64,000 nt of DNA from Styela clava. Taxonomy: Eukaryota > Chordata > Ascidiacea > Stolidobranchia > Styelidae. Within the stretch, counting starts at the first letter, position 1. The number at the start of each line of letters is the position of its first letter. The position numbers were made by a program, and so were the translations under genes. Shown piece after piece: positions 2,745 to 42,858 of the stretch. The notes below the pieces were generated by a model. That model worked only from the letters and a program-made list of their open reading frames with translations, was not told where the DNA came from and ran no database searches. The stretch is from NCBI RefSeq assembly GCF_964204865.1, contig NC_135251.1, positions 7,750,001-7,814,000 on the forward strand, given 5' to 3'.

Positions 2745-4409
2745 CTGAGCAGCCATGCGCATTTGATCTTTTAGTGTGGTATGGCGGCCTTCGCCATTTT
2801 TGAGAAAATCGGACAAATTGCCATGCTCCGTATACTCAATTACCAATATCTTCTTCTCTGAATCAAAGAATAAATCTCATATCAATCAGGGTTGAAGCGT
2901 TATATACCGCAATAGTCATTTAGTCACAATAGTTATACAATACTATTAAAATTCATTTGTCATAGCTTCACTTTTACAAAGTTAATAAAAAGTGACAGCC
3001 TACAATGAATTTCTAATAGTCGTCATGTAATTAGTTCAACTCTCATAAATATAATAACACACTTTAAAAGACTTTTCAAATTTGCAAAGGTTCAGTAATG
3101 CTGTGAAATGATTACGAAGGCCTACTAATATTGAATAATATTTGTTGTTTGCTTACCGATTACCGCGCCATACAATTTCACAATGTTTTTGTGAGTCAGC
3201 CTTTTCAAAATGTTGAACTCGTTTTCGAAATCAGTCCCGGGAATCTTACTTTCTGGTTTCCACGCCTTTATCATCACGTTTTGATTACCGAAGTTACCTT
3301 GTGAACAAATACAATAAGGTGATGGGGAAAAGATAAAGATATAAATTATATAATTAATAGTAAGTTGGTGATTATGATTGAGTTCGCTCAAAAAATTGTC
3401 ACAAAAATCATATATAGACTTTCACATGGTTGTATTAGTTTTCCAAATTGTAATTCTATTTTACGATAAAATTCACTCAATTGGTTTGTTCAGTTCAGAC
3501 AACGGATATCCTATAAGTAACATCTACTGCAAGCTGGCGTCTCACTCATGTGTGATTACTCACGATGGCCTTGCGATATTTAAATAAAACCATGAAAACG
3601 AGTGAGTAATTGTCGGTTGTTTGGTAAACCCTTTACGTTGGATATACGAATTTTTCGTCAACTGCAAACAATGCCTGCACTCCCGCTCCACACAGTTAGA
3701 TTACAACCGTATGTATTATACGCGCCTGATTCCTCTATATCTGTATTGTGATTGGTTAAACAAAAGTTCGGTTTCAAACATATGCGCAATCTAGAATCAA
3801 TATACCTATCCACACGTTCACAAAGTCTGTGGCCAGAATTTTTCTCTTTTTAACGATCTGACTCTCGTCAATATGTATCCAATCTTCAATCTCTTTTGTT
3901 TTGATCGAATCTGAGTCATATAGAATTTTTATGAGTGAAAATGAGTTTTTATGGGCGCAGTATTAGGCGTGTGTTTAAGCCTAGTGCATTTGCACTTGAA
4001 CCGAAGATAGAATTGTCCTAAAATTCGTCTTGTAAATGTAATGTATCGGGATTTACCTTCTGGCCACTTGTTGTACCAGAATTTTTTTTTTCCAAAATCT
4101 CTATAGATCACAAGTATATCACTTCAATCCCAAGTAAGTTCACGGATTGCTATGTTTATTTACTTCTATATAATTCAATAAAAATCTTTTAGAGCGTAAA
4201 GCAGTTTCGCCGTAAGAGGTTGAAAAATTATGTAGTTAATAATAGTATCAATTTACCTTCTGCTAACTCCTTGTTTTCCTCGGCAGAGTCACGAAACGTA
4301 TTGGTAATACTAGCATAAATGGCAACAGATTCGTTTTTCTTTAGGTATCCTTTATAAACAAAAACACGATGTGCGTAATATAAATTATCTGCCATTTCAA
4401 CAGATTTCG
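2745..4409 (-). CDS. Src-like tyrosine-kinase N-lobe and hinge exons, copy 1 (truncated gene)
   Basis: Three exons are supported by splice sites and phase. Exon 4409-4257 (153 nt, phase 1 to 1) has a kinase-like strand VYKGYL followed by VAIYAS, where a kinase would have Lys. Exon 3297-3157 (141 nt) gives NFGNQNVMIKAWKPE with the ATP-site Lys in VMIK, then FENEF carrying the alpha-C Glu and HKNIVKLYGAV. Exon 2857-2745 (113 nt) gives KKILVIEYTEHGNLSDFL, the hinge and alpha-D region, and ends MAAQ at a CAG|GTATGT donor. These match the Src-family N-lobe. The C-lobe exons expected next are absent: the duplication ends at 2006 and hAT DNA follows. Copy 2 has the same exons and does continue. This copy is therefore truncated, or its C-lobe lies left of the hAT element outside the window. 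The start of the 4409 exon is chosen by phase and is the least certain boundary. Confidence 0.7.
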
Positions 4410-4449
4410 CTAAAATCTGATCTAACGTAAAACACTGTCCAAATGAACT

Positions 4450-7398
4450 TTAGCATTCATTAGATTTGAAATTGAAAACAGGTTTACTTGAACCGTGTTG
4501 TTTGAAGACATCATGCTGCAAGATCTCCGAAGTTGTTGGTCGTTCAGAGGGATTTTGCTTCAGCATCGTGGTTAGCAAAGACTTTCCATGATCGCGATCT
4601 GGTATTTGCAGTTGATCGATGTTCAAATTTTCATTTCGTTTTATGTAGTGATTCCAAGAATGGGGATCATATCCGAAAACGTGTTTACCGTGCGACCAAA
4701 CATATCCGAATATCAGCGCAAGAGAATATACATCAGATCCTTTGCCAATGTCCCTGGTGCCTTTGAGCAACTCGGGTGAACGCCAGCCATCAGTACCAGG
4801 CTGAACCATACTTTGAACTGTGAATTCACGTCCACTGGTCATTATTTTCGAAAGGCCAAAATCGCAAAGTTTTACCACATTCCCAATAAGCAACACGTTA
4901 TGGGGTTTAAGATCCCGATTCAGAACATCATTATTGTGAAGGAAATCTAACCCCAGAGCAATTTGAAACGTGAAAGATATGTATTTATCGGCGTCAAAGG
5001 GAATCTTCTCCTTGATTTCCGACTCAATATAATCGTAGAGATTCAATGGATCGCACTTCTCCATTGCGATGTATATACACGACTGACCGTGATACTTGAA
5101 TGTATCGGTGAACAAGCGCTCGACAATATTTACATGATGAGGAACAGCAAAATGAATTTGCGCTTCACGTCGTTCGCGCTCGCCATCGCGTAAGATTTTA
5201 ACCGCAATTTCGCGATCACCAACAACTTTACTACGCAAGGTGGCGCGAAAGATTCGCGAATCAACGCTAATGGGGTTTTCTTCAGAAACTGCGATGAACG
5301 GAATCAAGTTGAATTGACCTAAAAAGAAGAAATGACAGAAAATTGAAAATAAATGTATTGCAAAAGGCAGTTACTTTACAGCAATGGTTCCCAACCGCTG
5401 CTCCGCGGTCCCGCAACGGCAGTTCTCTGCCAGTCTGTTAGAATTTCGTTGTTTTAGCTGCCAGAGTAAACACAAAAAGACGAAGTTACGTTCCTTTTTT
5501 AGGTGATTTAACTTCCGTGTTAAACTAATTTTAGGTCCTGTCAATAAAATGTTTGGGAAATTATCTCCAGTGTCTTGGTTATAAAGATTTATTACACGTG
5601 CGTGATTTAATCCAATTTGCTAATGTATGAAGCGTATTGTATTCCATTCCCAATGATGCCAATTGACAAGTACCATTTAAAAAGTAAGAGAATATAAATT
5701 CTTAAATTCACCGTACTACTGAAATAATATTGTCAAATTATTTAACTTCCCGAGCCAAACTTTTTTTTGTTAGGATAGCAAGTAAATCCGAATTTTCATT
5801 TTAAATACTAACAAAAACTAAACTACTAGGTTCAATTTTTTTTTCAAATTTACTGAATTACATAAAAATGGTAGGCCTATATAAATGCTCATTGGTTTAT
5901 GTATAGCAAAACAGTGAAGAGGTCATGACTTTTGTTATTCTAATCTGTTGAATGATACATAGTACTGACACAACATTTGCACCTATAAACTGCACCAGGA
6001 CCATTTGAACTTGCATGTTTTAGAACCCATGGGTCCACTCATGGACTTTTGTTTCCACGTTATAAAATGGGAAAAACTCATGTAATCCATGTTAAAAAAA
6101 GGTGAACCATAACATTTTTCAGAGAAGCACTTAGAGATCCACATAGCCCAATAGGAATGAATTTGTCTCTTCCTGTACTTCGCAAGGCGTAAATTGGGTC
6201 TAGAAACGCCCACCTCTTAGAACTTCGAATGAATGTTAATTCAGTTTCCAAACAACGCAATTTCTGCGACAACGCTCTTTATGCCTTTGTTTATGTTTTA
6301 ATTACGTTGCTATTTTATTGGCTCATGATTTTACAACTTGCATTTTAGAATATCATTTTGTTCAAATATACAGAGTTGCTCACGTCCATGGGTGCACATG
6401 TTTGTGGATGTAAATGTCTATGGATGCAATTGTTCACGGATGCTAAAATCTCAAGTGCAGTTTACGGGTGTAAATGAACGTGTATGCAAATATCCTTGAG
6501 TGCAACTGCCTGGGAGTGCAAATGTTCATAGTTCTAAATGTACTTGGGTACAAATGTATATGAATGCAAATATTCTTGAGTGCAAATACCCGTGAGTGCG
6601 AATGTTCATGGTTCTAAATGTACGTGGGTGCTAAAGCACGTTAGTTCAAATGTCCTTGGTGCAAGTGTAAATGTTGCGACAGCACTATTCATTGTTGAAC
6701 AGAAGCATTATGTGCATTTGCACTGACACTATGTATTATTGAACTGCTAAAATATGCTGAAGATAAAAAGTGCTAAAATATCGATTAGGCTTACAATTGA
6801 ATCTCACCTTCGACCCCATACGTATTTGTAGACGCTGTGAAAATAAGTAAATGACCAAATAAATACATTTCATTTCAACTTCAGTTGGTAAAGATTCCAT
6901 AATGACAGTATAGGCTGGGGTTACTATATTTCAAAATGCAAAATTTCAGGAAAATTTTCATATATATTCAACACACCAAATTTTGGGTCACTCCAAGGCG
7001 ACAGTATGAGTAGTAATTTATAATTAATGCTAGTTATACAAATATCTGAGTTATCACAACGCGAAATAAATTTTACCCTTCTAAGATTACAACGTATATA
7101 TATGCCGTTGGATTATCGTCGGAATCGAAGTAAATTATAACGATACACAATGTTAAAACCATAAAATATAATAATAAATGCGTATCACAATACCCACTTT
7201 TGATTATTTTTTAAAATTACCTTGTTCATATTTGTTGATAACGGTCTTGTTGACAATCTTATCGCCCAAAACTGAGCCGCGGAAATCCCCGCCTTTAACA
7301 TCAACACCTCTAGATGGATCTTGGAAAAAATGATGAAAAGTTTTATTAGTAGAAGTAGTGACTCGATTCTTCACAGGATAATCTATAGTTCCTGACAT
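4450..7398 (-). CDS. IRE1-like Ser/Thr kinase without sensor or KEN RNase domain, copy 1
   Basis: Exon 1 is 7398-7221: ATG directly after an in-frame TAA, 59 codons plus one base, donor CAAG|GTAATT. The terminal exon is 5318-4450: acceptor TTCTTTTTAG, stop TAA. Joined they give 348 residues; a 27-nt exon (6834-6808) can be added in frame. Kinase landmarks in the 348-residue form: AVK Lys at about 100, NRDLKPHN at 194-201 (His of HRD replaced by Asn, Asp and Asn kept), DFG at 212-214, then PGTDGWRSPELL. The GTxGWxxPE signature and LKPHN point to the IRE1/RNase L kinase group. IRE1 senses unfolded protein in the ER and carries a KEN RNase after the kinase. This protein ends about 20 residues after the last kinase helix and has no visible signal peptide or membrane segment, so it should be a free cytosolic kinase. 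Whether it signals or regulates another kinase is unknown. Confidence 0.78.
6386..6675. repeat. Degenerate minisatellite, unit about 20 bp
   Basis: About fourteen imperfect repeats of a roughly 20-bp unit resembling GAGTGCAAATGTTCATGG are seen. They recur as GTGCAAATG or TGCAAATA with variable GG/TT spacers. The array lies in an intron of the IRE1-like kinase gene. It is kept almost unchanged in copy 2 (39991-40280). No coding sense is apparent. Confidence 0.6.
6808..6834 (-). CDS. 27-nt phase-1 micro-exon of the kinase gene, copy 1
   Basis: On the minus strand an acceptor (TTATTTTCACAG) and a donor (GAAG|GTGAGA) enclose exactly 27 nt. With a phase-1 upstream exon it adds STNTYGVEG-like residues and keeps phase 1. 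It can sit between exon 1 (7398-7221) and either the IRE1-like exon (5318) or the tyrosine-kinase exons. Both copies keep it. No transcript evidence is available, so use is inferred. Confidence 0.5.
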
Positions 7399-7440
7399 TT
7401 ATAGTTCTGCTTGGAAAAAATGCAATTTCCACTGAGCGTC

Positions 7441-8345
7441 AGAACTCTGAGCTGGAGTTGGGTACTGCGCAGCCACCAGAGGGGTTACCGTGTCAAAATA
7501 TCCCCCTTTTCAGAATTTTTGGAACACCGTTGGTAAACTATATTCTCACAAATTCCCCACAAGTATCCAACTGCACCTTACGTCTAGAAAGATGACAACT
7601 GGGCGTTCAGTTTAAAAAACCAAGCTGAAAACTATACCGTAATTACTAAAGTTAAAGAGTCGATTGTATTCACAGCCTTCTCATTCACTTTTAAATTTCC
7701 ATCGGTGCTGCACTCACTTTTTTTGGATTATGATGATATATTGATATATGAATACACCGACATATTTTACTATTCCGAAAAATGTTTTCGATTCTGGAAT
7801 TCAGTATACATTCAAAAATTCCACATAAATATTATTCGCTTTAGGAAGTAAGCTTCAATTTTGTTATGACGGCAGAGCAGATATATATAAATAAAATATA
7901 TGGTATGTGTGATGTAATCAAGATTTGAAGTGTACTTGATGCTGAATAATAGTAGAGAATTAGAAAACAGCGCAATATTTATATTATATTGAATGCAGCT
8001 TTTATTTAGGCAAGCACAAAAACGTCAAATTGAATCGTTGCCAAGTGTTTAAAATCGTACAGTAAAAACTACGTGCACTTGGAAAAAATACAGTGTAGAA
8101 CAGATAACGATATTGAATAAGAACTTAAACTTTTAATAGGAAATGAACTCGGCCAGAGCATCTTTACGTTAGCATAACTGCGTTTCAAGGGATACAAGTA
8201 TAATTATAATCATATTTATGAGTTATAATCTCATTGGACCAGCGATAAGACTCCAAATTTTAAATTTTTCGCTTTTTATATGGAACGCACAAACAACAGG
8301 GTTCCTCATTTCAGAAAACCGCGCATCGTAATAAAAGTTGGGATT
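7441..8345. other. Noncoding stretch upstream of the kinase first exon
   Basis: No gene, RNA or repeat is recognised. The sequence is AT-rich. The part around 7770-7860 resembles the hAT-type terminal sequence at 63707-63850 (shared ATGTTTTCGA, TCTGGAATTC and AAGTAAGCTTCAAT words), so an old degenerate hAT copy may lie here. The same stretch is in copy 2. Confidence 0.3.
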
Positions 8346-8590
8346 ACACTCGCCACCGCACCTCTGAATAACCCTCGTGGGTTCGCAGGTTTACGCAACC
8401 GCTGGTCAATTGCGGCTTCCTCCACCATCAAGTTCATGCTTCCGAAAACAAATAACTGGCTAACTAATCCTATACCCGATATGGACTGGTAACCTGACAA
8501 GAGGACGTTGTTCGCTATGTGGTTAAGTCGTCCTATCGGCTTTTCTCTCCCCCGTGATAAATATGTAAATCCTACCCTAATCTTATCCTA
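8346..8590 (+). repeat. tRNA-derived SINE, 5' part internally deleted (copy 1)
   Basis: This belongs to the SINE family seen best at 46367-46702 and 17244-17573. It keeps the body from CTCGCCACCGCACC, the ACTGGCTAACTAATCC block, CTATCGGCTTTTCTCTC and the conserved GATAAATATGTAAATCCTA tail. The head is shortened: the box B region (GGGTTCGCAGG) is joined directly to the CGCAACCGCTGG body. Its partner in copy 2 is 41951-42195, so it predates the duplication. Confidence 0.85.
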
Positions 8591-8859
8591 GTTGAAGAAA
8601 CGCACATGGTAGTCCCATATGAACGCCTTCCAATGAGGCATTAATACATGTGCTTCGAATCAACGCAGCATGTTTGATGTTAATTGATAAAGTAAGACTC
8701 CGAACCGAGTGAATAGCGGTGGAACAGAGGAAGCGTAGAGATGTGGTCAAACATCAGGCTGGGTTGAAACCCCACAGGGTAGATCGAGCTGTAGGAAATC
8801 AACCTACCCTATCTTTACGCAAGCAGTTCAGGGAAATAGGTAAGCGGTGAGCGATAACA

Positions 8860-8931
8860 TATAAAGAACATCAGTTTCATTATTATTTTGGTTTTTATAA
8901 AGAACATCAGTTTCATTATTATTTTGGTTTT
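8860..8931. repeat. Two tandem 36-bp units
   Basis: Units 8860-8895 and 8896-8931 are identical over TATAAAGAACATCAG and the following TTTCATTATTATTTTGG. They produce the repeated KTKIIMKLMFFI string in an open frame on the minus strand, which I take to be noncoding. Copy 2 has the same doublet at 42465-42536. Confidence 0.8.
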
Positions 8932-9231
8932 ATATATAGAAAACCAAAATTTGGAAGTCCTTAGGGCCTCTGAAAGGCATGATTCGGCCCTGCTAGGCAC
9001 ACATTCACAAATTTTCAGAATTTCATTTTGAAATTTTTGCACATACGACCGTAAACTTAGAATATTCATGCAAAATTCGCTAAGACGATAACGCCCGTTT
9101 CGATACATTTGCAAATGACAATCTTTTCAGTAGCGATTCTGTCAGTGGTGGATTGATGAACGCACAATAAACATTGAATGCAAGAATAATTATGTTTATC
9201 AATAAATACAAAATATTAACTTTGAAATTAC

Positions 9232-9253
9232 CTTCGCGTGATGATTCAGCCAT
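9232..9253 (-). CDS. Candidate alternative first exon MAESSRE, copy 1
   Basis: ATG at 9253 directly follows an in-frame TAA, reads MAESSRE, and ends GAAG|GTAATT at 9232 in phase 1. That donor and phase equal those of the 7398-7221 first exon, so it could splice to the IRE1-like exon, the micro-exon or the tyrosine-kinase exons. It is conserved at 42858-42837. It is only 22 nt, so the call rests on the ATG, donor and phase. Confidence 0.35.
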
Positions 9254-17792: not shown

Positions 17793-20856
<3,064 letters not shown>

Positions 20857-20938
20857 ATATAGCACTTATCAATAGAGTGGTACAAATAAATAAAGACAGA
20901 GGCACTGTACTGACATGCCTTAGTCTCATTTTTGGTTA

Positions 20939-25930: not shown

Positions 25931-26168
25931 TACTCCCGTAGTATGTGAATATGTAAATCAGGATGGCGGACACCGGAACGTAGTATGTGTACCAGGTTAG
26001 GATTAGGCCATAATTATAGGTGCAAATACTACGGGAGTCATTCGGCTAGTCCCCGAACTCGTAATAGAACTAAAATGGAAAAATTTGGAATAAAATTATG
26101 GCCTAACCCCAACCTGGTACACGTACTATGTCCGTGTCCGCCAACTTGGTTCACCTACTACGGGAGTA
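25931..26168. mobile_element. Foldback MITE with CTCCCGTAGTATGTG ends
   Basis: The element is 25933-26166 with CTCCCGTAGTATGTGAA at the left and TTCACCTACTACGGGAG at the right, flanked by TA (25931-25932, 26167-26168). The arms extend about 95 bp each (GGATGGCGGACACCGGAACG, ACCAGGTTAGGATTAGGCC and complements). They surround a centre with GTCCCCGAACTCGTAATAGAAC. An internal extra ACTACGGGAGT at about 26028 shows a nested half copy. The TA flank suggests a Tc1/mariner-type helper. Confidence 0.85.
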
Positions 26169-26365
26169 CATTATCAAATAAGATACATATCATATACATT
26201 ATCATTAAGATACACTCTACAAAAGGAACGTTGTTACATTATAGCCCATGTTTATTCCCGTATTACAGTTATGGGTTTCAAAATATGGTTTTCAAAAATG
26301 GATATTTGACTTGTATAATTCATGAAAAAAACCAATTAATAGTTACAAGAGAAAATGGCGATGGC

Positions 26366-26445: not shown

Positions 26446-26678
26446 CAATAAAAGTTTGGTAGGCAATTACACACGGGAAGAAATATTCCAAGTATAAATA
26501 TATGCCAGTAACCTTTGACCGATCTAAGCACGAGAATTACATTGACAGAACGGTATTTACAGCTGAGTGTGGAGACATGCGGATGAATGCATTCCCGGCG
26601 TTATAAGTAACGTCGACAGGCATGAGATGAAGACAGATATATTTAATTTTCATCTTATTGAAATTGGCGTTTCAGAAG

Positions 26679-26876
26679 TGTGTGTACCAATATGGAGGTA
26701 ACTAATTTGGTTCGCCTACTTTACATCAAGTTGTGCAAAGGGACTGAAACTTATGGGCAGGGGATATATTCATTTGGCTAACACAGACAGTCCACGAACT
26801 CGTAATAGAACTAAAATAGAGAAACTCGTAATAAAATTATTCTCATCCCTAACCTGGTACACGCACTACGGGAGTT
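26679..26876. mobile_element. Degenerate CTCCCGTAGT foldback MITE
   Basis: The right part is clear: GTCCACGAACTCGTAATAGAAC, TCGTAATAAAATTATTC, CCTAACCTGGTACACGCAC and TACGGGAG at the end. The left arm is reduced to GTGTGTACCAATATGGAGG and GTTCGCCTAC. Confidence 0.65.
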
Positions 26877-26930
26877 GATTGAAACATTCGTGAAAATAAT
26901 AACGCTCAAATCAGAATTGTTCTGAAACTC

Positions 26931-26936
26931 TTTATT
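26931..26936 (-). promoter_or_regulatory. Poly(A) signal AATAAA for the kinase-SH3 gene
   Basis: AATAAA on the minus strand lies about 110 bases after the SH3 exon stop codon at 27048-27046, a normal distance for a 3' UTR. Confidence 0.5.
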
Positions 26937-27045
26937 TATAGATCTTCGAGTTCGATTTCTGGTCTTGGGGTTTACGCCCAATTATGGGTCATAGATGATT
27001 GATATCGAGAATCGAAATTTGGCAGAATCTCAGAATATACAATTC

Positions 27046-28119
27046 TTAGTCAATCAACTTTACGTAATTTGCAGGAATTAAGCCTCGTTGCCCGTTGCAG
27101 GTTCCCAACCACCAATCTTTTTTTTTCTGTATATTCAATATCTGTGATAATGTCTCCTGTCCGAATGCTTATTTCGACATCTTCGTCTAACAGTAAATAA
27201 AAAAACGGATAGAACTGCTGCTGTGTACAGTTTGTTGCCAATATAGTGTGATAATAAGAATATGATTGCTTGTTAATAATAAGTTTACTTGAGATAGCTT
27301 TCATTTTAACATAACATGTATAGATCGTTACTGGCCGCGACTGACGCAATACAAACACGGGCTGTAATATATGTAGCCTAAATTGTAAAAGATAAGTAAC
27401 AAACCTTAGTGAAAATAGTACAGTGTATCTAGTTCGAAAAAAATTAAAATATTTTTAACATTAAAAAATGTTATCTTAGACTCTTAGAGTGATAAGTAGT
27501 CAATTGCGTTAACGACATTAGAGGAATTCATATTCAAATCAAAGGGAATATCGTCGTTGCGAGATCTATAGGCTTCAATTACCGTAGTGCCAGAGATCAT
27601 TAGAAAATTTTAAAATACATTTTTAAAAATAGATTTTGAACACAAGCAGGTCATTTCAAGTCAGAATTAATTGAAAATATTGTATTACAAATTTAGGTGC
27701 TCCCGAAGTATGCGAACCAAGATGGCGGACATCGGAACGTAACATGGGTAACAGGTTAGTGTTAGGCGATAATTTCTTTCCAATTTTCCTTATTTTAGTC
27801 CTATTATCAGCTCGAAGCTTAGCCAAGAGCCTCCCGTAGTATTTATACCTAAAATTATGGCCTAACCCTAACCTAGTACACATATTACATTCCGATGTCC
27901 GCCATCTTGGTTCGCATACTTCGGGAGCCCCCAAATTTATTTATTACAAGCCCTTTTTTATAGCAGATGTTTTTTTTATGTTTTTATCAGTAATTTTTCG
28001 ATAATAGTGGGGAGATTTCAACAAGCAACCCTATGAGCAACCCTCACCTTTGACCACGTCAAAAAGTGCCACTGCTTTCTTTTTTGTGGCTGGAGTAGCC
28101 TTTTGTTCATCCAATGAAC
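27046..28119 (-). CDS. C-terminal SH3 domain exons of the tandem pseudokinase gene
   Basis: Two exons are visible. Exon 28119-28048 (72 nt, acceptor CTATTATAG, donor CAAAG|GTGAGG) gives GSLDEQKATPATKKK, then the first SH3 strand AVALFDVV. Exon 27186-27046 (acceptor TTTACTGTTAG) gives DEDVEISIRTGDIITDI, then DWWLGTCNGQRGLIPANYVK, LID and a stop. ALFDV, the WW pair, GLIPANYV and the spacing make a full SH3 fold, which binds proline-rich peptides. Between the halves a run of nine A puts the second half one base out of frame; eight A would keep it open. Both exons start in phase 1, as does the end of the kinase exon at 28895, so they attach to the upstream kinase. Sequence error, allele or pseudogene cannot be separated here. 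Confidence 0.75.
27700..27927. mobile_element. Foldback MITE in the SH3 intron
   Basis: Same family as 25931-26168: CTCCCGAAGTATGCGAACCA, AGATGGCGGACATCGGAACG and GGTTAGTGTTAGGC at the left, and the complement ending TTCGCATACTTCGGGAG at the right. An internal CCTCCCGTAGTATTTATACC marks a nested junction. No clear target duplication. It lies in the intron between the two SH3 exons. Confidence 0.8.
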
Positions 28120-28894
28120 CTATAATAGAATATTTACATATGCGGTCATCGATATTACTTAAAATTGTTCAAGTAACAGTAGGTAAAGCAGGAGTTACAT
28201 TATCGCTGTCTGTGTGATGTGGAAGTCTATCTTAAACTGCAAATTTGGGAACTTCCAGCACTGTGTCATTTATATATGCTCAGCCCAAATACTGATTTTA
28301 CTGCTGAATTTGAGTTTCATTCTAACCCATACGTTGAAGTGAATGTCTTTTATGATGTACGGTGTGTACGTTACAAACGAATCGCCGGGGTCTTTTATAG
28401 TGGTATTACTTTGTCCTGGCTTTATTAATTGTAGCGAGATATACTTTCGCTTACAAATGTTGCAAAAGTTTTGTGCTTAGCAATATGCAAACAAAATGTA
28501 GTAGGTTTAACTTACTTTTAAAGTTGGAAAATGCTTGTGTGGTCTTCTGAAAATATGATTTCTTTTCTTCAGCAATTGATCCTGTATACATCGAATATAG
28601 AGATTCTTAAGAGTGACATATTAGTCTATTAATGTCAATCTATTAATTAATTATCTATCTGAAGTCAATATAAAGCAATCTATTTGGACTGATTTTAGGG
28701 AGTGAAAAACGATCTAGTTAAACTGGACTGCAGACTGAGTAGAGTGAAACAGTAACAAATTCGAAGGTTTGACATTTTGAAGCTTAAATAAATTTGAAAA
28801 TTATGATAAATGTATTAAAATGCTTGTTCCGAGAGTTATGCTTACATTCAGAGAATTAATTATGGTAGGAAATTAAAATATTATTGTAGCTGAC

Positions 28895-31800
28895 CTGTCG
28901 CTTCTACGCTGATGCTGACCCCCTCGTTGTCGCTAATGTGTCGAGATTCGTCGTTGAAGTCATATTGTTTCAGAAAATCCTATAATATATGGCCGAACAA
29001 TAAAATTCGGTTTATGATTCATTAGTATTGTTCTTAGCCCGTTATGCAAAACCCGTATTTATTAAATTTTGACATGAATTTATCTTAATTTTTTTTATTG
29101 CAAGCTATCGTAAATAATTTGTGCACTTTGTGAATTAAGCAGCTTAAAAGCTTTGCCCACCTGATGTTGAAGATTAGGAACTCATATCCTATATTCAGGT
29201 ATTTGTATGATGTCGTTCCTACTTGCCCACCAGACAGCCATGAGTTATATTAATTTTTTATACTTTTCGTTTTATAAAAATAATATCGCTCTGTGAACAG
29301 CCTTTCAAATACGCCACAAACCGAATCAAAAAATTGTCAGGATTCTCAACACTTCCATAAGCACACACTGAAGTCATTATGATATTGTTAGAGTATTTTG
29401 CGAAATATTCGTGGCTAATGGAGGTGAGGGGAATGAGTGAATAAAGCGACTATCATTAAAATCGGTTCATAAAAATATTGGAGCGTAATTACTTATTAAT
29501 ATGTTTTTCGCCATCAACCGGGCCTGTATCAGCAGATGTGAGAGCCACTATTTTTATGATGGCTGGTTGGCCTCCTAGTAAAACGTGTCATGAATATGGG
29601 GACGTTTGACGTATAACTTCATGTCATGAGTTTAGATAGAAACCGCGACTTTTCTCTGTTCGTTATGTGTACCTCAAGATATTCGAACGCTGGCCTCTTT
29701 GCAGGATCGTTGTCCCAGCACTTAAGCATGACTTCGTAAAGTTGTTCTGGACATGAAGCTGGGCGTGGCATTCGATACCCTTCCACCAGCTTTTTTATAA
29801 CTTCTTTGTTCAATATTCCTAAATGAAGTATAATTGTTGTTTTTTGAACAATTAGATTATATAGAAATATAGGGACCGAATTGTGATAACGTCGAATGTC
29901 CGACATTTTGGTTTGGAAATCATGACTTATCCTTGCAAGCGATGTTTGATTAATCAAACATCTCAGTCTGTGAGAAATTATGAGCAAGATTGCATTGAAA
30001 ATTTGTATCACACAGCAGTCCGGATGTTTTTCCTCATACAATAGTTAGCGGAAAAAGTATTATTTAAATACAGAAAATGTGATTTCGCAATACGGTCCTA
30101 CTTTTGTTGGCGATATTTTGCGCGAAACCAAATAGGTCGAAAATAAAGTCTTCGTCAAAAACGAAGTTTGATAGAATCACCAAATAATTCAATTTCCACT
30201 AGTTTGGTAGATGAAGTAATTTGCATTATTTTACAATTTTTTTTACATGTCATGGTATGCTTACCCGGATATGGTGTGCACCCTTTCGTCACTAACTCAG
30301 TCAGAAGCACACCAAAACTCCAAACATCTGACTTGTGTGAAAAGTCCAAGAACTTATAGGCTTCTAGCGCCATCCACTTTATTGGAAAGATTTCTCCTTT
30401 AAGTGGTTTCCACTTTCCATCGTTTCCAACATATTGTGCCGAACTGAAATCAAACAGTTTGCACGACCAGTTTTCCCCGACTGCAATAGATCCTGCGCGA
30501 AGATCTATAAAAATATATTGTTTTTGTTCCAAATAGGCCATTCCGGATGAAATCTGTTAATAAAGAATTTATATTTTATTCCATTCTGGTTATTTTAGGA
30601 GTTAGGATAAGGAAATAAACTGGAAATTCCAGCTGTGAACCAAATGAAAATAAAATACATAAACATCGTTTAACCGATTTATGTCAGAATAGAATCGGGT
30701 CTAAAACATTGAGAAATTGGGATAGTAATTTAGAAACGCTTATATACAAGTTCAATGAGCTAATCTCCTTTACGATGTTGTCAGATGCAGGGATGGGAAG
30801 TTGGTTCGGAATCAAGGTTTCCCTGATATCACAGTATATCCAAACCGTGGCTCCGGATCCGGAACTTCATTTTTTATGTCGGACATTGAGGTTTTTGGGC
30901 GTGACCACCAGACCACTATGAAACATCAGTCCAAATGTAGTTTCGCAGTGGGACCCAAAACAGTGATATAAGGGTTTCAAATTGAAATTCAAACATTTTG
31001 CTATTAAAAATATAAATTCAATTTGAGACTTCGAAATTGATATTAGAAATTCAGATTGTTGAAATAAAGTTGAAAGAATATATTAGTTTTTATTCGTATT
31101 GGGATTTAGAAAATTTTAACGTCAGAAAGGTACATATAGAACTGAAGCCTATAAAATTCTTCATGAACTATGGTAAACCTATCTCCAGTCACACCTCAGC
31201 AGGACGGCTGCAACTTCAACCCGACTCCCGAGCCCTGGCCACGTAGTGCATAGTATAGTATAAGTCGTTTATTCAAAACATACTTGAGCAGCCATGTTTA
31301 TTTGATCCTTTATTGTGGAATGTCGGCCTTCTCCTTTTTTAAGAAAGTATAACAAAGAACCATATTTCATATCCTCCAGAAGCAATATCTTCTTATCTGC
31401 ATAAATGAAATAATCGAATGTAATTAATATATAAATATTATGGCCTGATATAGGTTAATCCAAATTCTGAAACATGTTTGAATTTACATAATTGAGACGT
31501 AATGTGTTTATTTAGTATTTCTAACTTGCACTTAGTATCAACTAAGGATGTCGATAACATAAACTCCAAGTGCTATTATGTCTCACGCATTGCAAAGTGA
31601 AATTGTTTAACTACTCGAATCGATTCACTTTCTTAAAAGTTTCTGAAAATTATCATGCTTCAGCCTGAGCAAAGGGCCCATTTAAAATTACAGCATACCT
31701 ATAAAAAACATTATTTTGAAAGCAAACACACACCATGTTCGGGCCATGTCTGCATCTGGCTGGTTTGTTTTCATATGCAGTAAATTAATCTTCTATGATA

Positions 31801-32444
31801 GCCTACTGTACTTGCCTGCCACGGCACCACATAATTCCACGATGTTTTTGTGAAATAGATTCTTTATCGTGTTAAACTCATTCGAAAAAATTATTCCGCC
31901 ATGCTCAGCTTCTGGCTTCCAGATTTTTATGATAACTTTTTGGGAACCAAATTTGCCTGTAAATTACATTTATTCTTAAACACCATTCCAAATTAATTAT
32001 TTGATAGATTAATTAGAAAATAGCAAAAGAGAAATGTAGATCGTATTGACTTAAGGAATCCATGTGTTAAGGGGTGAAGTTTCTATTTAATAATGTATGT
32101 CAGAAAGGGAAAACAAATATCTAAAAGCATGAGCTAGAATAACTCATTGGTAGTTTTGTCAAAAACTGCGACTTAGTGTCACAGTGCATGAACGTTTGAC
32201 AACCTACATTTTTTAGTTTTAGAAAACAAAATAAAACTTCCGAATTGAAGATTCATAAACAGTTCACAGCATATGTCAGCCTAATATCATATGATCTTTC
32301 ACCCTCGATGATTATTAGTCGACGTCGTATATTTACACTTCAACAAACCTTTCCATATTTCTGCAAATGGCGTGTCTGTGACTTTGTAGTGTTTATAAAT
32401 TCGATTTTCGTTTCTAGGAACCCATACTTCCTCTCCCCTTGTTA
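28895..32444 (-). CDS. Src-like pseudokinase unit B
   Basis: Six exons, all phase-compatible. 32444-32349 gives [12 protein letters not shown] then [12 protein letters not shown], the W-x-x-P-R linker and glycine loop of Src with every loop glycine lost. 31956-31816 has the VIIK Lys and NEF Glu, and ends in a GC donor (CAG|GCAAGT). 31396-31284 is the hinge. 30553-30265 has [15 protein letters not shown] (HRD to FID, catalytic-loop Asn to Ser), FDFSS (DFG to DFS), ALE for APE and [18 protein letters not shown]. 29818-29673 has EGYRMPRP and RPAFEYLE. 28979-28895 has DFLKQYDF, then a linker. DLRA plus [14 protein letters not shown] is the Src-family form. It keeps Lys, Glu and two Asp but has lost the loop glycines, Asn and DFG Gly, so weak or no catalysis is expected. 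It likely follows unit C in one protein and leads into the SH3 exons. Confidence 0.78.
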
Positions 32445-32449
32445 CTATA

Positions 32450-33399
32450 TAAAATAAAATATATTTAAGAAGAAAAATCAATGACAGCCATGTAGTTTTT
32501 TCTTGTGGGATATAGCAAATAGTTTGCCACGGTCAACAGGCAGGTATAAACGGTAGCGCCGTTTTTTGCCATGACTTGAACGACGAAACCCTTGGATTGA
32601 ACGAGGTTAAGAGAGACGATTTTTATTTTGTAAATAATCAAAAACTGTAACCACCAATATGTTATATAGTTTTTTCGCTAGTTGGCGCCGTGGAACAGTT
32701 CATTGCATTTTGATCAACCACAATTACTCTGTGGGCATGATGTCAGTGGACCCCCTGTCGCACAGTTTAGAAGGTAGTGACTGTTGAGTCATTTCGGCAT
32801 TTTTTAAGTATGTTATTTTCAGTTTTGAAGCTAATGAGCGATTTTAATTTAATAGGGTTAAATATACGTAGGTTATTTCTACTAATAGTAAACAGTGTAA
32901 TGTTATTATTAATCTTTCTCACATTGGTCGATCTAATATTGCTAAATAGTTCAGTCGAGGTATTGACATTTAGGGCCCACGTTACTGTTTGACGGCTCTT
33001 GAAAACAAAACGTAAATATATTTAAGTTATGCATTAGTCTGTATATTCCTGCCAGGTGTCAAGTTCGTAAGAGGTTTGTTTATTATAACCATTAGTGATG
33101 CCCGTATATATTGTGTGACGTAATAATTCTATTTAGGTTTGCTGACTATTACAATATTGCTTTTATTTTGCGTATGTGCTTTTACTTATTTTATGATAAG
33201 TTCAGAAAACCGTTCTCAGATGTTTACAACGCAATGAATGACGACAAAGAACTAAACTTCTTGTGCTGATAGTGCGCGTCTGTTTGGAGTGCAATCTTGG
33301 TCGAACAGAGTATTCGATGTTGGCCTACCCGTACACCCTATGTGGGCAGAGTCCACAACGAAGTTTTAATCAAAGCTATGCGCCAACACATACTTTTAC
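32450..33399. other. Intron between pseudokinase units C and B
   Basis: No exon or repeat is recognised. If units C and B were separate genes, a promoter and first exon for B and a terminator for C should lie here. I see no convincing poly(A) site or first exon. Confidence 0.4.
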
Positions 33400-36300
33400 C
33401 AACATCTTCGGCATTGTCATCAAAGTCAGATCTTTTCAACACATTCTGAAAATACAGTGTAGAATGAACATTTTTCGTTTAGTCATTATTGAAAATGAAT
33501 TTGTTGTGATTCGAAGTTTAAATATTACCAACATTATTATTGGATTTACAAATCATACATAACGAATAATACGTTCACTTGTTTCAGGTTAGCTTGCAGA
33601 AAAATGGAATTTGTAAGTGGCAAAACACATGGTCATGGGTTAGAAACATTTTAGCGCCACACCACGTTCACTTGAGCACTCATTGCAAGCGTTTCATGCA
33701 AAATATAGAAAACAAAATGTCGCTCGCATATTAACTCCGCAGATTATAGGAATAAGTTTTACCAATGGAGTTGTTGGAATTTGTTAAATGTACCCTGCCT
33801 TTAAAAAGTATTCGAACAGAACCTGCGTTAAGGTTGCCCGGTATTAGGATTACACGCCATAAACAACAGCAGTGAATTTACGTAATTGTGATTCTACAAT
33901 TAGCATTAAGGCATTGCTAGAATAGTAGGCACCAGAATAAATGGCGCTGGGCTAGTCACGCAAATGTGGCATGTAAATATTGCATACTTGCTTATAACAA
34001 CACTTTCATATTTGCTTCTTACCTCCAGCCAGTTGAAGGTTGGTCTCATCAGCGGTTCTCTGGCCCAGCACATAAGAATGACGTTATATAGCTTCTCGGG
34101 ACATGATATAGGACGTGGTATTCTGAAGCCTTCTTCTATCTTGCTCATAATTTCATCTTGTGTCATTCCTGCAATGGACGTTTATAGGCGATTTATTCGA
34201 AATGCAAAGTTTGTAATCGGGCCGTCGCGGGTTCATATGTTCTCGCTCCTCGATATGGGACTTTTATGTGTGAATATAATTAAAAAAACACGCGTTTGCT
34301 GGAGGACTACGAAGTACTACAACGAACGTAGAAAAGGGTATAGATCCAGGTGTATTCATAACTGTATGAATCAAGTATAGTATTTTACCAGCATTTGATT
34401 TGTGTATGACAAGGGCTGTTGTCCTTCAGTATCAGCATGAACAAATTTCAAAATTTAATTAAATAGTTTGGAGCCGGGTAATGGGCATAAGGTAGTTTGA
34501 AAATCGGCATCATTGCAACCATTACTGTGAGTGTGCAATACAGAATATCGTTTTCATATATGTGTCTCCAGGAATATATATATCTGTTTTGTATCCTAGA
34601 ATTCTATCTGTAATTAACTTGGAATATTTTAAAAAGTTCATTTAGCAGCAAAATTATATGTTTGCTAGAATCCATAAAATACACGCGTTTAAAGGTGATA
34701 ATTCTAAATTTTGTTCGAACTCAATTCTCACATAATTTTGCTGAAAATATATAGATTTTCTAACCAGGATATAAATGTTGTCCCTTTGTCACTAGTTCAA
34801 TCATTAAAACACCAAATGCCCACACGTCCGACTTATGCGACATGACATATCCTTCGAATAGACATTCAGGAGCAGCATGGTGATGTGGGCAGGTAAACTC
34901 ATCAGGCATTTCTATTTGCCCAAGATCTCCAACATATTTTGCCAAACTGAAATTACATAGCTTGCACAACATGTTTTCTCCAACGAGTACACTACCTGCG
35001 CGAAGATCGACTAAAACATACTGCAGTTGCTCCAAATAAACCATGGCGGAAGCCACCTGTTGAAAATTAATATGTGTAATGAATAAATGTACAAAACTCT
35101 GTCGTAGCCATTTATTTAGAAGAAGGAATTGACTTTAAGTTAAGATGTATTAGCATACCAAAACAGACATTTGAATATGACAAAATTGTAACAATTATGA
35201 ACTAATACACATCAGCCGGTGCGCCGAATTTTTTTTGCAGCAGCTTTCACAACAATCACACCGCAACACTCGTTGAGGTAGCAAACATTTTCATCTGAAA
35301 TGATGTTTGTCTGCTGCGGGAAATATGCAATCGACAGCCGATAATAACCTGAAAATGCTGGGTCATAATATCTGTAAATGTAGTAACGTAAGCGAGCGGC
35401 TATGTTAATTCATAACGATTTTATCCCAACTACATAGCGAAGGAATTTACTTAGGTAGAATGCAATGAACATAGATTAGACTAAAATTTATCGTAATCCG
35501 GAATACATTGGTGGTAGTCAATTTGTTAATGAGGCTCTTTTGAACCTGAAAATTTACCAAAGGGGACATTACTAGCGCTGATAGCGCAAAGGGATTTTCA
35601 TCTTCATCGCCTATGGCAGGGAACTCAAGTGGCTTTCGAGTTTTCGGACCGCACCTCATTCTATATGTTGAAACGCTGGCCTATTAACTTTGGATATGTG
35701 AAGTTTTTTTCTATTATATGACTTTAACTGTGGCGCCGTAATAAAAATGGGAAGGTGCTTTCCTATGATTTGCGAAAAATCACCAACTGGGAACATCGAT
35801 ATTTATTTAGGCGCACTGTGATATACATTCTCTAGAAAGCCCGGATCCCGGTAATTTGTAGTTTTGTATACGGATCTTTGGTGAAAATAGTTGAGTAGCC
35901 TTGGCCTACCTATCGTTTCTGCTGGTAACTAAGCAAAATGCGTGCGATTTACAGCGTGTAAAATGCGTGAAGACAACATCGCTGAGCTCCCAAAACAAAA
36001 TATATGCTGCGTTTTTCATTTTCAATTTGTGGACACTTTCCATTTGCTGCCGCGGCACGAAAATCCGAGAGTCACTTTATTGCGCGCATTTTTAATCACA
36101 TTCAACGTCTCGTCAGCACCGATCATTGCATCATGACGCGTTTTCGCACTGTACGTTGAATTCTGCGAGAAAAAACTAGTTCTCGATCGCAGTGATCCCG
36201 CCCCTATAGGGAGTGAACAGTGAAACACCCCACTCAAATTTTAAAGTTTGGTAATAAAATTTAAAATTCACTCATAATACCCAATATATTATCCCAATAT

Positions 36301-36900
36301 TGTAAATGTCTAACTTGTACACTCGTTTCGTAAAAAATGCAACATACCTGAGCAGCCATGCGCATTTGATCTTTTAGTGTGGTATGACGGCCTTCGCCAT
36401 TTTTGAGAAAATCGGACAAATTGCCATGCTCCGTATACTCAATTACCAATATCTTCTTCTCTGAATCAAAGAATAAATCTCATATCAATCAGGGTTGAAG
36501 CGTTATATACCGCAATAGTCATTTAGTCACAATAGTTATACAATACTATTAAAATTCATTTGTCATAGCTTCACTTTTACAAAGTTAATAAAAAGTGACA
36601 GCCTACAATGAATTTCTAATAGTCGTCATGTAATTAGTTCAACTCTCATAAATATAATAACACACTTTAAAAGACTTTTCAAATTTGCAAAGGTTCAGTA
36701 ATGCTGTGAAATGATTACGAAGGCCTACTAATATTGAATAATATTTGTTGTTTGCTTACCGATTACCGCGCCATACAATTTCACAATGTTTTTGTGAGTC
36801 AGCCTTTTCAAAATGTTGAACTCGTTTTCGAAATCAGTCCCGGGAATCTTACTTTCTGGTTTCCACGCCTTTATCATCACGTTTTGATCACCGAAGTTAC
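33400..36900 (-). CDS. Src-like pseudokinase unit C
   Basis: Five exons. 36900-36760 (141 nt) has VMIK and FENEF; 36460-36348 (113 nt) the hinge; 35056-34765 (292 nt) the catalytic region; 34168-34023 (146 nt) EGFRIPRP and RPTFNWLE; 33445-33400 (46 nt) NVLKRSDFDDN. Exon sizes equal those of unit B (141, 113, 289, 146), so B and C arose by duplication of a whole kinase domain. Motifs: HRD is LVD, catalytic-loop Asn is Ser (DLRAGS), DFG is NFS (metal-binding Asp lost), APE intact, then SHKSDVWAFGVLMIELVTKG. This is a clearer pseudokinase than B. The first two exons lie in the duplicated segment and the last three in single-copy DNA, so the duplication boundary (35704) falls in the intron between hinge and C-lobe. 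The last exon ends in phase 1, fitting unit B's first exon at 32444. I found no SH2 exon. Confidence 0.76.
35057..35703. other. Intronic DNA left of duplication copy 2
   Basis: Lies between the hinge exon (36348) and C-lobe exon (35056) of unit C. The piece TTTTCGGACCGCACCTCATT at about 35640 resembles the hAT MITE at 24530. Homology to copy 1 starts at AAGTTTTTTTCTATTATATG (about 35702). Confidence 0.5.
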
Positions 36901-37861
36901 CTTGTGAACAAATACATTAAGGTGATGGGAAAAAGATAAAGATATAAATTATATAATTAATAGTAAGTTGGTGATTATGATTGAGTTCGCTCAAAAAATT
37001 GTCACAAAAATCATATATAGACTTTCACATGGTTGTATTAGTTTTCCAAATTGTAATTCTATTTTACGATAAAATTCACTCAATTGGTTTGTTCAGTTCA
37101 GACAACGGATATCCTATAAGTAACATCTACTGCAAGCTGGCGTCTCACTCATGTGTGATTACTCACGATGGCCTTGCGATATTTAAATAAAACCATGAAA
37201 ACGAGTGAGTAATTGTCGGTTGTTTGGTAAACCCTTTACGTTGGATATACGAATTTTTCGTCAACTGCAAACAATGCCTGCACTCCCGCTCCACACAGTT
37301 AGATTACAACCGTATGTATTATACGCGCCTGATTCCTCTATATCTGTATTGTGATTGGTTAAACAAAAGTTCGGTTTCAAACATATGCGCAATCTAGAAT
37401 CAATATACCTATCCACACGTTCACAAAGTCTGTGGCCAGAATTTTTCTTTTTTTAACGATCTGACTCTCGTCAATATGTATCCAATCTTCAATCTCTTTT
37501 GTTTTGATCGAATCTGAGTCATATAGAATTTTTATGAGTGAAAATGAGTTTTTATGGGCGCAGTATTAGGCGTGTGTTTAAGCCTAGTGCATTTGCACTT
37601 GAACCGAAGATAGAATTGTCCTAAAATTCGTCTTGTAAATGTAATGTATCGGGATTTACCTCCTGGCCACTTTATGTACCAGAATTTTTTTTTTTTCCAA
37701 AATCTCTATAGATCACAAGTATATAACTTCAATCCCAAGTAAGTTCACGGATTGCTATGTTTATTTACTTCTATATAATTCAATAAAAATCTTTTAGAGC
37801 GTAAAGCAGTTTCGCCGTAAAAGGTTGAAAAATTATTTAGGTAATAATAGTATCAATTTAC

Positions 37862-38014
37862 CTTCTGCTAACTTCTTGTTTTCCTCGGCAGAGTCACGAA
37901 ACGTATTGGTAATACTAGCATAAATGGCAACAGATTCGTTTTTCTTTAGGTATCCTTTATAAACAAAAACACGATGTGCGTAATATAAATTATCTGCCAT
38001 TTCAACAGATTTTG
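37862..38014 (-). CDS. Kinase-gene exon upstream of unit C, copy 2
   Basis: Counterpart of 4409-4257. 153 nt, phase 1 at both ends: acceptor GATTTTAG, donor GAAG|GTAAAT. It encodes KSVEMADNLYY, VYKGYL, VAIYAS and SAEENKKLAE (copy 1 has ENKEL). It lies just after the IRE1-like stop codon, in the same frame as that exon. VYKG followed by VAIY looks like a degraded kinase N-lobe strand. It would be included only in transcripts skipping the IRE1-like exon. Confidence 0.5.
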
Positions 38015-38054
38015 CTAAAATCTGATCTAACCTAAAACACTGTCCAAATGAACT

Positions 38055-41003
38055 TTAGCATTCATTAGATTTGAAATTGAAAACAGGTTTACTTGAACCG
38101 TGTTGTTTGAAGACATCATGCTGCAAGATCTCCGAAGTTGTTGGTCGTTCAGAGGGATTTTGCTTCAGCATCGTGGTTAGCAAAGACTTTCCATGATCGC
38201 GATCTGGTATTTGCAGTTGATCGATGTTCAAATTTTCATTTCGTTTTATGTAGTGATTCCAAGAATGGGGATCATATCCGAAAACGTGTTTACCGTGCGA
38301 CCAAACATATCCGAATATCAGCGCAAGAGAATATACATCAGATCCTTTGCCAATGTCCTTGGTGCCTTTGAGCAACTCGGGTGAACGCCAGCCATCAGTA
38401 CCAGGCTGAACCATACTTTGAACTGCGAATTCACGTCCACTGGTCATTATTTTCGAAAGTCCAAAATCGCAAAGTTTTACCACATTCCCAATAAGCAACA
38501 CGTTATGGGGTTTAAGATCCCGATTCAGAACATCATTATTGTGAAGGAAATCTAACCCCAGAGCAATTTGAAACGTGAAAGATATGTATTTATCGGCGTC
38601 AAAGGGAATCTTCTCCTTGATTTCCGACTCAATATAATCGTAGAGATTCAATGGATCGCACTTCTCCATTGCGATGTATATACACGACTGACCGTGATAC
38701 TTGAATGTATCGGTGAACAAGCGCTCGACAATATTTACATGATGAGGAACAGCAAAATGAATTTGCGCTTCACGTCGTTCGCGCTCGCCATCGCGTAAGA
38801 TTTTAACCGCAATTTCGCGATCACCAACAACTTTACTACGCAAGGTGGCGCGAAAGATTCGCGAATCAACGCTAATGGGGTTTTCTTCAGAAACTGCGAT
38901 GAACGGAATCAAGTTGAATTGACCTAAAAAGAAGAAATGACAGAAAATTGAAAATAAATGTATTGCAAAAGGCAGATACTTTACAGCAATGGTTCCCAAC
39001 CGCTTCTCCGCGGTCCCGCAACGGCAGTTCTCTGCCAGTCTGTTAGAATTTCGTTGTTTTAGCTGCCAGAGTAAACACAAAAAGACGAAGTTACGTTCCT
39101 TTTTTAGGTGATTTAACTTCCGTGTTAAACTAATTTTAGGTCCTGTCAATAAAATGTTTGGGAAATTATCTCCAGTGTCTTGGTTATAAAGATTTATTAC
39201 ACGTGCGTGATTTAATCCAATTTGCTAATGTATGAAGCGTATTGTATTCCATTCCCAATGATGCCAATTGACAAGTACCATTTAAAAAGTAAGAGAATAT
39301 AAATTCTTAAATTCACCGTACTACTGAAATAATATTGTCAAATTATTTAACTTCCCGAGCCAAACTTTTTTTTGTTAGGATAGCAAGTAAATCCGAATTT
39401 TCATTTTAAATACTAACAAAAACTAAACTACTAGGTTCAATTTTTTTTTCAAATTTACTGAATTACATAAAAATGGTAGGCCTATATAAATGCTCATTGG
39501 TTTATGTATAGCAAAACAGTGAAGAGGTCATGACTTTTGTTATTCTAATCTGTTGAATGATACATAGTACTGACACAACATTTGCACCTATAAACTGCAC
39601 CAGGACCATTTGAACTTGCATGTTTTAGAACCCATGGGTCCACTCATGGACTTTTGTTTCCACGTTATAAAATGGGAAAAACTCATGTAATCCATGTTAA
39701 AAAAAGGTGAACCATAACATTTTTCAGAGAAGCACTTAGAGATCCACATAGCCCAATAGGAATGAATTTGTCTCTTCCTGTACTTCGCAAGGCGTAAATT
39801 GGGTCTAGAAACGCCCACCTCTTAGAACTTCGAATGAATGTTAATTCAGTTTCCAAACAACGCAATTTCTGCGACAACGCTCTTTATGCCTTTGTTTATG
39901 TTTTAATTACGTTGCTATTTTATTGGCTCATGATTTTACAACTTGCATTTTAGAATATCATTTTGTTCAAATATACAGAGTTGCTCACGTCCATGGGTGC
40001 ACATGTTTGTGGATGTAAATGTCTATGGATGCAATTGTTCACGGATGCTAAAATCTCAAGTGCAGTTTACGGGTGTAAATGAACGTGTATGCAAATATCC
40101 TTGAGTGCAACTGCCTGGGAGTGCAAATGTTCATAGTTCTAAATGTACTTGGGTACAAATGTATATGAATGCAAATATTCTTGAGTGCAAATACCCGTGA
40201 GTGCGAATGTTCATGGTTCTAAATGTACGTGGGTGCTAAAGCACGTTAGTTCAAATGTCCTTGGTGCAAGTGTAAATGTTGCGCCAGCACTATTCATTGT
40301 TGAACAGAAGCATTATGTACATTTGCACTGACACTATGTATTATTGAACTGCTAAAATATGCTGAAGATAAAAAGTGCTAAAATATCGATTAGGCTTACA
40401 ATTGAATCTCACCTTCGACCCCATACGTATTTGTAGACGCTGTGAAAATAAGTAAATGACCAAATAAATACATTTCATTTCAACTTCAGTTGGTAAAGAT
40501 TCCATAATGACAGTATAGGCTGGGGTTACTATATTTCAAAATGCAAAATTTCAGGAAAATTTTCATATATATTCAACACACCAAATTTTGGGTCACTCCA
40601 AGGCGACAGTATGAGTAGTAATTTATAATTAATGCTAGTTATACAAATATCTGAGTTATCACAACGCGAAATAAATTTTACCCTTCTAAGATTACAACGT
40701 ATATATATGCCGTTGGATTATCGTCGGAATCGAAGTAAATTATAACGATACACAATGTTAAATCCATAAAATATAATAATAAATGGGTATCACAATACCC
40801 ACTTTTGATTATTTTTTAAAATTACCTTGTTCATATTTGTTGATAACGGTCTTGTTGACAATCTTATCGCCCAAAACTGAGCCGCGGAAATCCCCGCCTT
40901 TAACATCAACACCTCTAGATGGATCTTGGAAAAAATGATGAAAAGTTTTATTAGTAGAAGTAGTGACTCGATTCTTCACAGGATAATCTATAGTTCCTGA
41001 CAT
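38055..41003 (-). CDS. IRE1-like Ser/Thr kinase, copy 2
   Basis: Exons 41003-40826, optional 40439-40413, and 38923-38055. It is the twin of 4450-7398. In the terminal exon I see three base differences from copy 1, two changing residues (FTVQ to FAVQ, GTRD to GTKD). All landmarks are kept: AVK Lys, NRDLKPHN, DFG, GTDGWRSPE and the same TAA right after the kinase fold. In this copy the open frame continues upstream through the acceptor into intron sequence, so a 364-codon frame is visible, but the acceptor TTCTTTTTAG at 38924 and its phase match to exon 1 favour the spliced form. It sits in an intron of the longer pseudokinase model on the same strand, so the two outcomes would compete by splicing. 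Confidence 0.8.
39991..40280. repeat. Degenerate minisatellite, copy 2
   Basis: Twin of 6386-6675 with hardly any change in length or sequence, so no unit gain or loss since the copies separated or were last homogenised. Confidence 0.6.
40413..40439 (-). CDS. 27-nt micro-exon, copy 2
   Basis: Twin of 6834-6808 with the same acceptor (TTTTCACAG), donor (GAAG|GTGAGA) and phase 1 at both ends. Confidence 0.5.
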
Positions 41004-42836: not shown

Positions 42837-42858
42837 CTTCGCGTGATGATTCAGCCAT
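42837..42858 (-). CDS. Candidate alternative first exon MAESSRE, copy 2
   Basis: Twin of 9253-9232: ATG preceded by in-frame TAA, phase-1 donor GAAG|GTAATT. Confidence 0.35.

Follow-up and report, generated by a model that had tools for sequence, protein, structure and literature searches.

A Styela clava locus predicted to join an IRE1/PKR-like kinase to two Src-derived pseudokinases and an SH3 domain

What kind of protein is encoded where two degenerate Src-like kinase units stand in tandem and an SH3 domain comes behind them? This question is raised by a minus-strand locus of the ascidian Styela clava, located in a window of 64,000 nucleotides (nt), which is the whole stretch of DNA that was analysed (contig NC_135251.1, positions 7,750,001 to 7,814,000; coordinates below are those of the window). 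The original prediction had read here two Src-family kinase units followed by a C-terminal SH3 domain, with no SH2 domain. Both units and the SH3 domain were recovered from the exons proposed for them and no SH2 domain was found. The kinase-kinase-SH3 order is correct for the part that it describes, but it is not the full order, since a serine/threonine (Ser/Thr) kinase lies ahead of it, itself preceded by some 49 conserved residues. We regard the locus as a member of a Styela clava multi-kinase family built from an N-terminal motif, an IRE1/PKR-like kinase, two Src-derived pseudokinases, a linker and an SH3 domain, and give this reading a probability of roughly 0.6; the mechanism proposed below we consider less likely than not. 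The domain order of the family can be read at sequence level, while its assembly into a single transcript would follow from gene predictions.

A predicted gene of 20 exons

The gene model runs from 42858 to 27050 and consists of 20 exons with 3066 nt including the stop codon, that is 1021 codons without internal stops. Of its 19 introns, 18 have GT-AG boundaries and one has GC-AG, and the phases match throughout. Along the predicted protein the order is N-terminal motif, Ser/Thr kinase, Src pseudokinase C, Src pseudokinase B, linker and SH3. The top named matches in a search with the two-kinase model were Styela clava proteins. P0001 (LOC120335729 isoform X2, a predicted Styela clava protein of 989 amino acids (aa)) is identical to the model at 988 of 989 residues. 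It leaves out exon B0 after the donor at 33394, and the predicted proteins P0002 and P0003 include this exon after the same donor. A tblastn comparison of P0002 with the window recovered the Ser/Thr kinase exon with an expectation value (E) of 7e-175 and the pseudokinase exons with E down to 2.8e-55. These exon matches are not due to chance, because 20 shuffles of the window that kept two-base blocks reached a best E of only 0.47. The predicted proteins make it likely that the modules from the Ser/Thr kinase exon to the SH3 domain belong to one gene. Its features are as follows.

42837..42858 (-): exon E1, start codon, MAESSRE; found by a MAESS search, with a GT donor, equal to P0001 residues 1-7
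40826..40924 (-): exon E2, N-terminal motif DPSRGVDVKGGDFRGSVLGDKIVNKTVINKYEQ; in P0001, motif in four Styela proteins only
40413..40439 (-): exon E3, ASTNTYGVE, 27 nt; present in P0001
38093..38923 (-): exon E4, IRE1/PKR-like Ser/Thr kinase domain, 831 nt; PF00069, PDB matches IRE1 and PKR
37862..37954 (-): exon E5, linker RYLKKNESVAIYASITNTFRDSAEENKKLAE; in P0001, no Pfam match
37409..37513 (-): exon C0, start of pseudokinase C; in P0001
36760..36900 (-): exon C1, pseudokinase C
36348..36460 (-): exon C2, pseudokinase C
34765..35056 (-): exon C3, pseudokinase C, with HRD changed to LVD and DFG to NFS (alignment)
34023..34168 (-): exon C4, pseudokinase C
33394..33445 (-): exon C5, end of pseudokinase C, followed by GTATGT (paralogue comparison)
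32349..32444 (-): exon B0, start of pseudokinase B; in P0002 and P0003, skipped in P0001
31816..31956 (-): exon B1, pseudokinase B, GC donor
31284..31396 (-): exon B2, pseudokinase B
30265..30553 (-): exon B3, pseudokinase B, with HRD changed to FID, DFG to DFS and APE to ALE (alignment)
29673..29818 (-): exon B4, pseudokinase B
28895..28979 (-): exon B5, end of pseudokinase B and tail
28516..28581 (-): exon K1, linker; in P0001, helix predicted at P0003 residues 312-339
28048..28119 (-): exon S1, first part of SH3
27050..27186 (-): exon S2, remainder of SH3, frame shifted at the nine-A run; TGA at the end in the nine-A frame, the other frame stopping at 27046
27118..27126 (-): nine-A run where the SH3 frame is lost; P0003 in frame at the same place
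26931..26936 (-): AATAAA, candidate polyadenylation signal about 110 nt past the stop, one of 29 such hexamers on the same strand in 26500-43500

The original prediction counted 13 exons from 36900 onwards and three leading exons; these indeed sum to exactly 2179 nt with a remainder of 1 and a stop at 27046. The set was incomplete, as the start of unit C (37513-37409) and a linker exon (28581-28516) had been left out, both of which are in P0001. As a set, the three leading exons (41003-40826, 40439-40413, 38014-37862) did not hold up either, P0001 using 42858-42837, 40924-40826, 40439-40413, 38923-38093 and 37954-37862. The candidates 41003-40826 (as a start) and 38014-37862 (beginning MADN...) are in phase, but their boundaries differ from those of P0001 and the Ser/Thr kinase exon lies between them. 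The proposed donor of exon C5 at 33400 has to be moved to 33394, where GTATGT follows and the residues read GKIT in P0003, DKIT in P0002 and GKS in P0001. A separate gene for the Ser/Thr kinase was also rejected, as the short intron 38092-37955 of the P0001 model takes in both the stop (38055) and the MADN start (38000), and exon E5 was dropped as a kinase fragment, having no Pfam match. The intron between E3 and E4 holds an 80-bp tandem repeat of 2.3 copies at 40089-40269.

One probable kinase, two probable pseudokinases and an SH3 domain

The Ser/Thr kinase matches PF00069 with E 3.2e-36 (in an earlier 348-aa model containing exon E4), and its best solved relatives in the PDB are IRE1 (E 8.1e-22) and PKR (E 9.2e-18). 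In the alignment it retains the catalytic Lys, the alphaC Glu, the catalytic-loop Asp and Asn and the DFG motif, and judged by these residues it is likely to be catalytically active. When the Ser/Thr part was used as query, five of 98 matches had E below 1e-100, all of them Styela proteins (P0006 itself, P0001, P0002, P0101 and P0005), and the next match had E 2.7e-21; protein searches of this type register only sequences of similar length that have 5-residue words in common, by which distant relatives may be missed. The N-terminal motif GGDFRGSVLGDKIVNKTVIN (40826-40924, minus strand) is highly conserved among four Styela proteins, and the N-terminal 60 residues as query retrieved, within the same limits, only four proteins, all from Styela, among 9 candidates. 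We take the motif to recall the glycine-rich repeat motifs of some immune proteins.

Units C and B together match PF07714 with E 5.3e-125, and unit B aligns to c-Src with 229.6 bits. In a tree of 37 kinase rows (30 kinase domains from 26 proteins chosen out of 120 listed, and 7 Styela rows) the seven Styela units group together in a single clade (100/100) on a long stem branch of 0.9, its sister being vertebrate Src/Yes (97/93); the placement of the long branches (JAK2 twice, PTK7, STYK1) is unsure. Within the clade, C units (100/100) and B-like units (88/74) form separate groups. Each window unit pairs with its counterpart in P0002, and therefore the doubling of the unit predates the split between P0001 and P0002. 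The two units share 141 of 276 residues, and their exons have nearly the same lengths (C and B, respectively: 141/141, 113/113, 292/289 and 146/146 nt) and the same phases.

The glycine loop, the His and Arg of HRD, the Gly of DFG and the activation-loop Tyr are lost in all seven aligned Styela tyrosine kinase units, the replacements in units C and B being those given for exons C3 and B3. Units C and B retain the beta3 Lys and the alphaC Glu. The C-terminal regulatory Tyr of the Src family is missing from the B5 and C5 tails, as read by eye. Going by these motifs, pseudokinases C and B are probably catalytically dead. The fold predicted for P0003 from a 17-row alignment had a mean predicted local distance difference test score (pLDDT) of 82.4, with most kinase blocks of ten residues at 88-98, SH3 blocks at 73-91 and a helix between the two domains. 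The 50 PDB chains listed for it, out of at least 2000 matches, were Src, Fyn, Hck, Lck and Lyn. The model suggests that P0003 has an intact kinase fold and an SH3 domain.

Past the nine As at 27126-27118, recognisable SH3 residues DWWLGTCNGQRGLIPANYVKLID run on in another frame. P0003, which is 97% identical over the matching part, has the SH3 in frame there, and the deposited P0001 has the shifted end. Compared with SH3_1, the SH3 of the window copy gave E 2.6e-11 with an X at the shift and 0.16 for the unshifted first half; the paralogues P0003 and P0006 have a complete Pfam SH3. In the original prediction the length became a multiple of three when the nine-A run was read as eight As. A frame break at the run is confirmed by the second half of the SH3 in another frame. 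Length by itself does not prove it, because the fuller model, with nine As kept, likewise divides by three and ends on the in-frame TGA at 27050; it is the SH3 residues that prove the shift. Grb2 and cortactin are the nearest solved relatives of this SH3, and no Src-family kinase chain was present in the 60 relatives shown of 263; the domain does not look like a Src SH3 that was displaced. An SH2 domain was found neither in the 708-aa piece up to E 1 nor in P0002 or P0006 up to E 0.001. The last SH3 exon is flanked by inverted repeat copies (25950-26169 and 27697-27918, 79%), which might bear on movement of the SH3 exon.

The family and its possible explanations

The paralogues differ in their number of pseudokinases, which is zero, one or two. 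P0002 has the Ser/Thr kinase, two pseudokinases and the SH3 (partly missing in the isoform) and is identical to the window model at 804 of 973 aligned residues; from this divergence it would represent another locus. P0006 (738 aa) combines the Ser/Thr kinase with one pseudokinase and the SH3. P0101 has the Ser/Thr kinase and no pseudokinase, with SH3-like remnants seen by eye and no Pfam SH3. Two shorter proteins cover parts of the order: P0005 (502 aa) consists of a partial Ser/Thr kinase and the C unit and ends just past that unit, and P0003 (401 aa), which starts with exon C5, comprises the B unit and the SH3. The database records place P0001, P0003, P0005 and P0006 on contigs of equal length (31344463) and P0101 on one of length 23510596. 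The window itself contains a direct 8.7-kb duplicate (2195-10848 and 35798-44453, 98.7% identity), which carries exons E1-C2; their first copy lies at 2745..9253 on the minus strand with 7 base changes in 1431. The duplicate may have arisen by tandem copying not long ago, or it may be an artefact of assembly.

IRE1 and PKR kinases are activated by being brought together. Tentatively, and with less confidence than the family assignment, we propose that the Ser/Thr kinase is the output of the protein and would be switched on in an IRE1/PKR-like manner by meeting another copy. The two Src-like pseudokinases, no longer phosphorylating, could act as folded protein-binding or allosteric modules that gate the Ser/Thr kinase, and the SH3 could dock the protein onto proline-rich partners. 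The number of pseudokinase units differs by paralogue and might tune what each of them binds.

Several points weigh against this reading of the locus. Firstly, the one-transcript model rests on predictions, P0001 and P0002 both being predicted proteins, and P0001 probably stems from this assembly or one almost the same and is hence not independent of the window. Secondly, predicted P0005 stops and P0003 starts at the junction between units C and B, and P0001 leaves exon B0 out. Thirdly, a clear glycine loop is missing from the Ser/Thr kinase, where Asn also replaces the His of HRD, and the pseudokinases keep the beta3 Lys (both units) and the DFG Asp (unit B), with which nucleotide binding is possible. 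The fold of full-length P0002, calculated on six sequences, had a mean pLDDT of 31.3 and a predicted template modelling score (pTM) of 0.21, values too low for domain contacts to be read from it. Lastly, the nine-A run puts the SH3 of the window copy out of frame, whether this is genuine or a sequence error.

This frame shift in S2 could imply that the locus is a decaying pseudogene copy in an array that still breeds copies. The skipping of B0 in the predicted isoform X2 fits such decay, as do open reading frames (ORFs) for a hAT-type transposase at 2-1966 on the minus strand (zf-BED, E 2.9e-10; Dimer_Tnp_hAT, E 5e-24), where the first copy should reach exon C3. Still, 1021 codons contain no internal stop and the nine-A run can be a base-call error. 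The non-synonymous (dN) and synonymous (dS) divergence between units C and B, 0.39 and 1.60, moreover gives a dN/dS of about 0.25, although dS is near saturation and the ratio reflects the past of the family and not the present of this copy. Overall we consider decay unlikely.

The boundary shared by P0005 and P0003 would also be expected if the predictor had fused two genes, one for the Ser/Thr kinase and pseudokinase C and one for pseudokinase B and the SH3. AATAAA hexamers at 33167, 33084 and 32627, three of the 29 counted above, lie inside the intron between C5 and B0. However, P0001 and P0002 both span this junction, C5 and B0 are in phase with a GTATGT donor, and P0006 likewise joins a Ser/Thr kinase, one pseudokinase and an SH3, so that a fusion of two genes seems improbable.

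About equally improbable is that the pseudokinases serve as baits. As lookalikes of host Src they would be bound by pathogen or parasite factors, the PKR/IRE1-type kinase would sound the alarm, the SH3 would dock the protein, and the number of baits would vary between gene copies. Such a protein would be a chordate counterpart of the tandem-kinase immune proteins of plants. The recent duplicate, the variable unit number, the PKR/IRE1-type output domain and the absence of matches to the Ser/Thr part between 1e-118 (Styela) and 3e-21 are consistent with this, and in plants tandem kinase-pseudokinases are described as resistance proteins (PMC8956640). The analogy to the plant proteins is, however, architectural only. 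The automatic names ‘Fyn-like’ and ‘JAK1-like’ would point to a normal, active tyrosine kinase of the Fyn or JAK kind, which is very hard to reconcile with the alterations of HRD, DFG, glycine loop and activation Tyr in 7/7 Styela units and with a Pfam search that found no SH2 or FERM domain.

Comparison with known systems and other features of the window

Compared with the family multi-kinase reading, each known system shares only part of the arrangement. The Styela tyrosine kinase units nest within the Src family (Src, Yes, Fyn) and the predicted fold of unit B is Src-like, but their catalytic motifs are altered, the units stand in tandem and a Ser/Thr kinase is fused to them. An SH2 was not found, and the SH3 is C-terminal and of another type, so that the SH3-SH2-kinase order is absent. 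This order is given as the anciently conserved core of the Src-type kinase group in the portion of PMC8662651 used here, and that portion names no order like that of Styela. The Ser/Thr kinase resembles the kinase domain of IRE1 and PKR, but it is joined to Src-derived pseudokinases, and Pfam matched neither a KEN ribonuclease domain nor a double-stranded RNA-binding domain in the scanned model pieces or P0002. JAK proteins have the order FERM-SH2-pseudokinase-tyrosine kinase. They likewise place a pseudokinase next to a kinase in one chain, whereas in Styela the Ser/Thr kinase comes first, both tyrosine kinase units are apparently dead, and FERM and SH2 were not found.

The plant tandem kinase proteins Sr62, Yr15 and Pm24 also combine kinase and pseudokinase in one chain, as the Styela predicted models do, going by the consulted part of PMC8956640, which mentions a guarded target or direct perception as proposals for their action (the term ‘bait’ is ours). 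The Styela kinases are unrelated to them and belong to another kingdom. A further protein, P0004 (ENA contig, 23 kb), has an SH2 and four tandem Src-like kinase units, which are nearest to each other in the tree. Unlike the Styela proteins it has an N-terminal SH2 and HRN for HRD and lacks a Ser/Thr kinase and an SH3, and its units stand apart from the Styela units.

The joining of kinase and pseudokinase in one chain is thus already known, while for the Styela domain order no description was found. The original prediction knew of no described family with this order; we found none in the literature searched, and no paper on this Styela family among titles and abstract starts in open-licence PMC, but predicted records do exist under the names ‘JAK1-like’, ‘Fyn-like’ and ‘uncharacterized’. 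A chain that links a Ser/Thr kinase with a pair of Src-derived pseudokinases and an SH3 would give the pseudokinase field a new arrangement. It would be a case, in a close relative of the vertebrates, of a captured Src kinase domain whose catalytic motifs disappeared and which was duplicated and stayed under constraint. The paralogues with zero, one and two units could serve as a natural dissection series for the effect of pseudokinases on a linked kinase. Chromosome-level assemblies are available for Styela plicata and Botryllus schlosseri (PMC12627437, PMC12448946).

Other repeats were seen in the window. Further duplicated blocks lie at 17188-22520 and 59368-63706 (92% and 97%) with an offset of about 41-42 kb, accompanied by an inverted 300-bp pair (18841-19140 and 19528-19827). 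Direct 796-bp repeats at 49949-50744 and 57158-57953 (99.75%) flank plus-strand ORFs of 441 aa, which has no Pfam match, and 1557 aa. Together, the 796-bp repeats and the two long ORFs look like a young long terminal repeat (LTR) retrotransposon.

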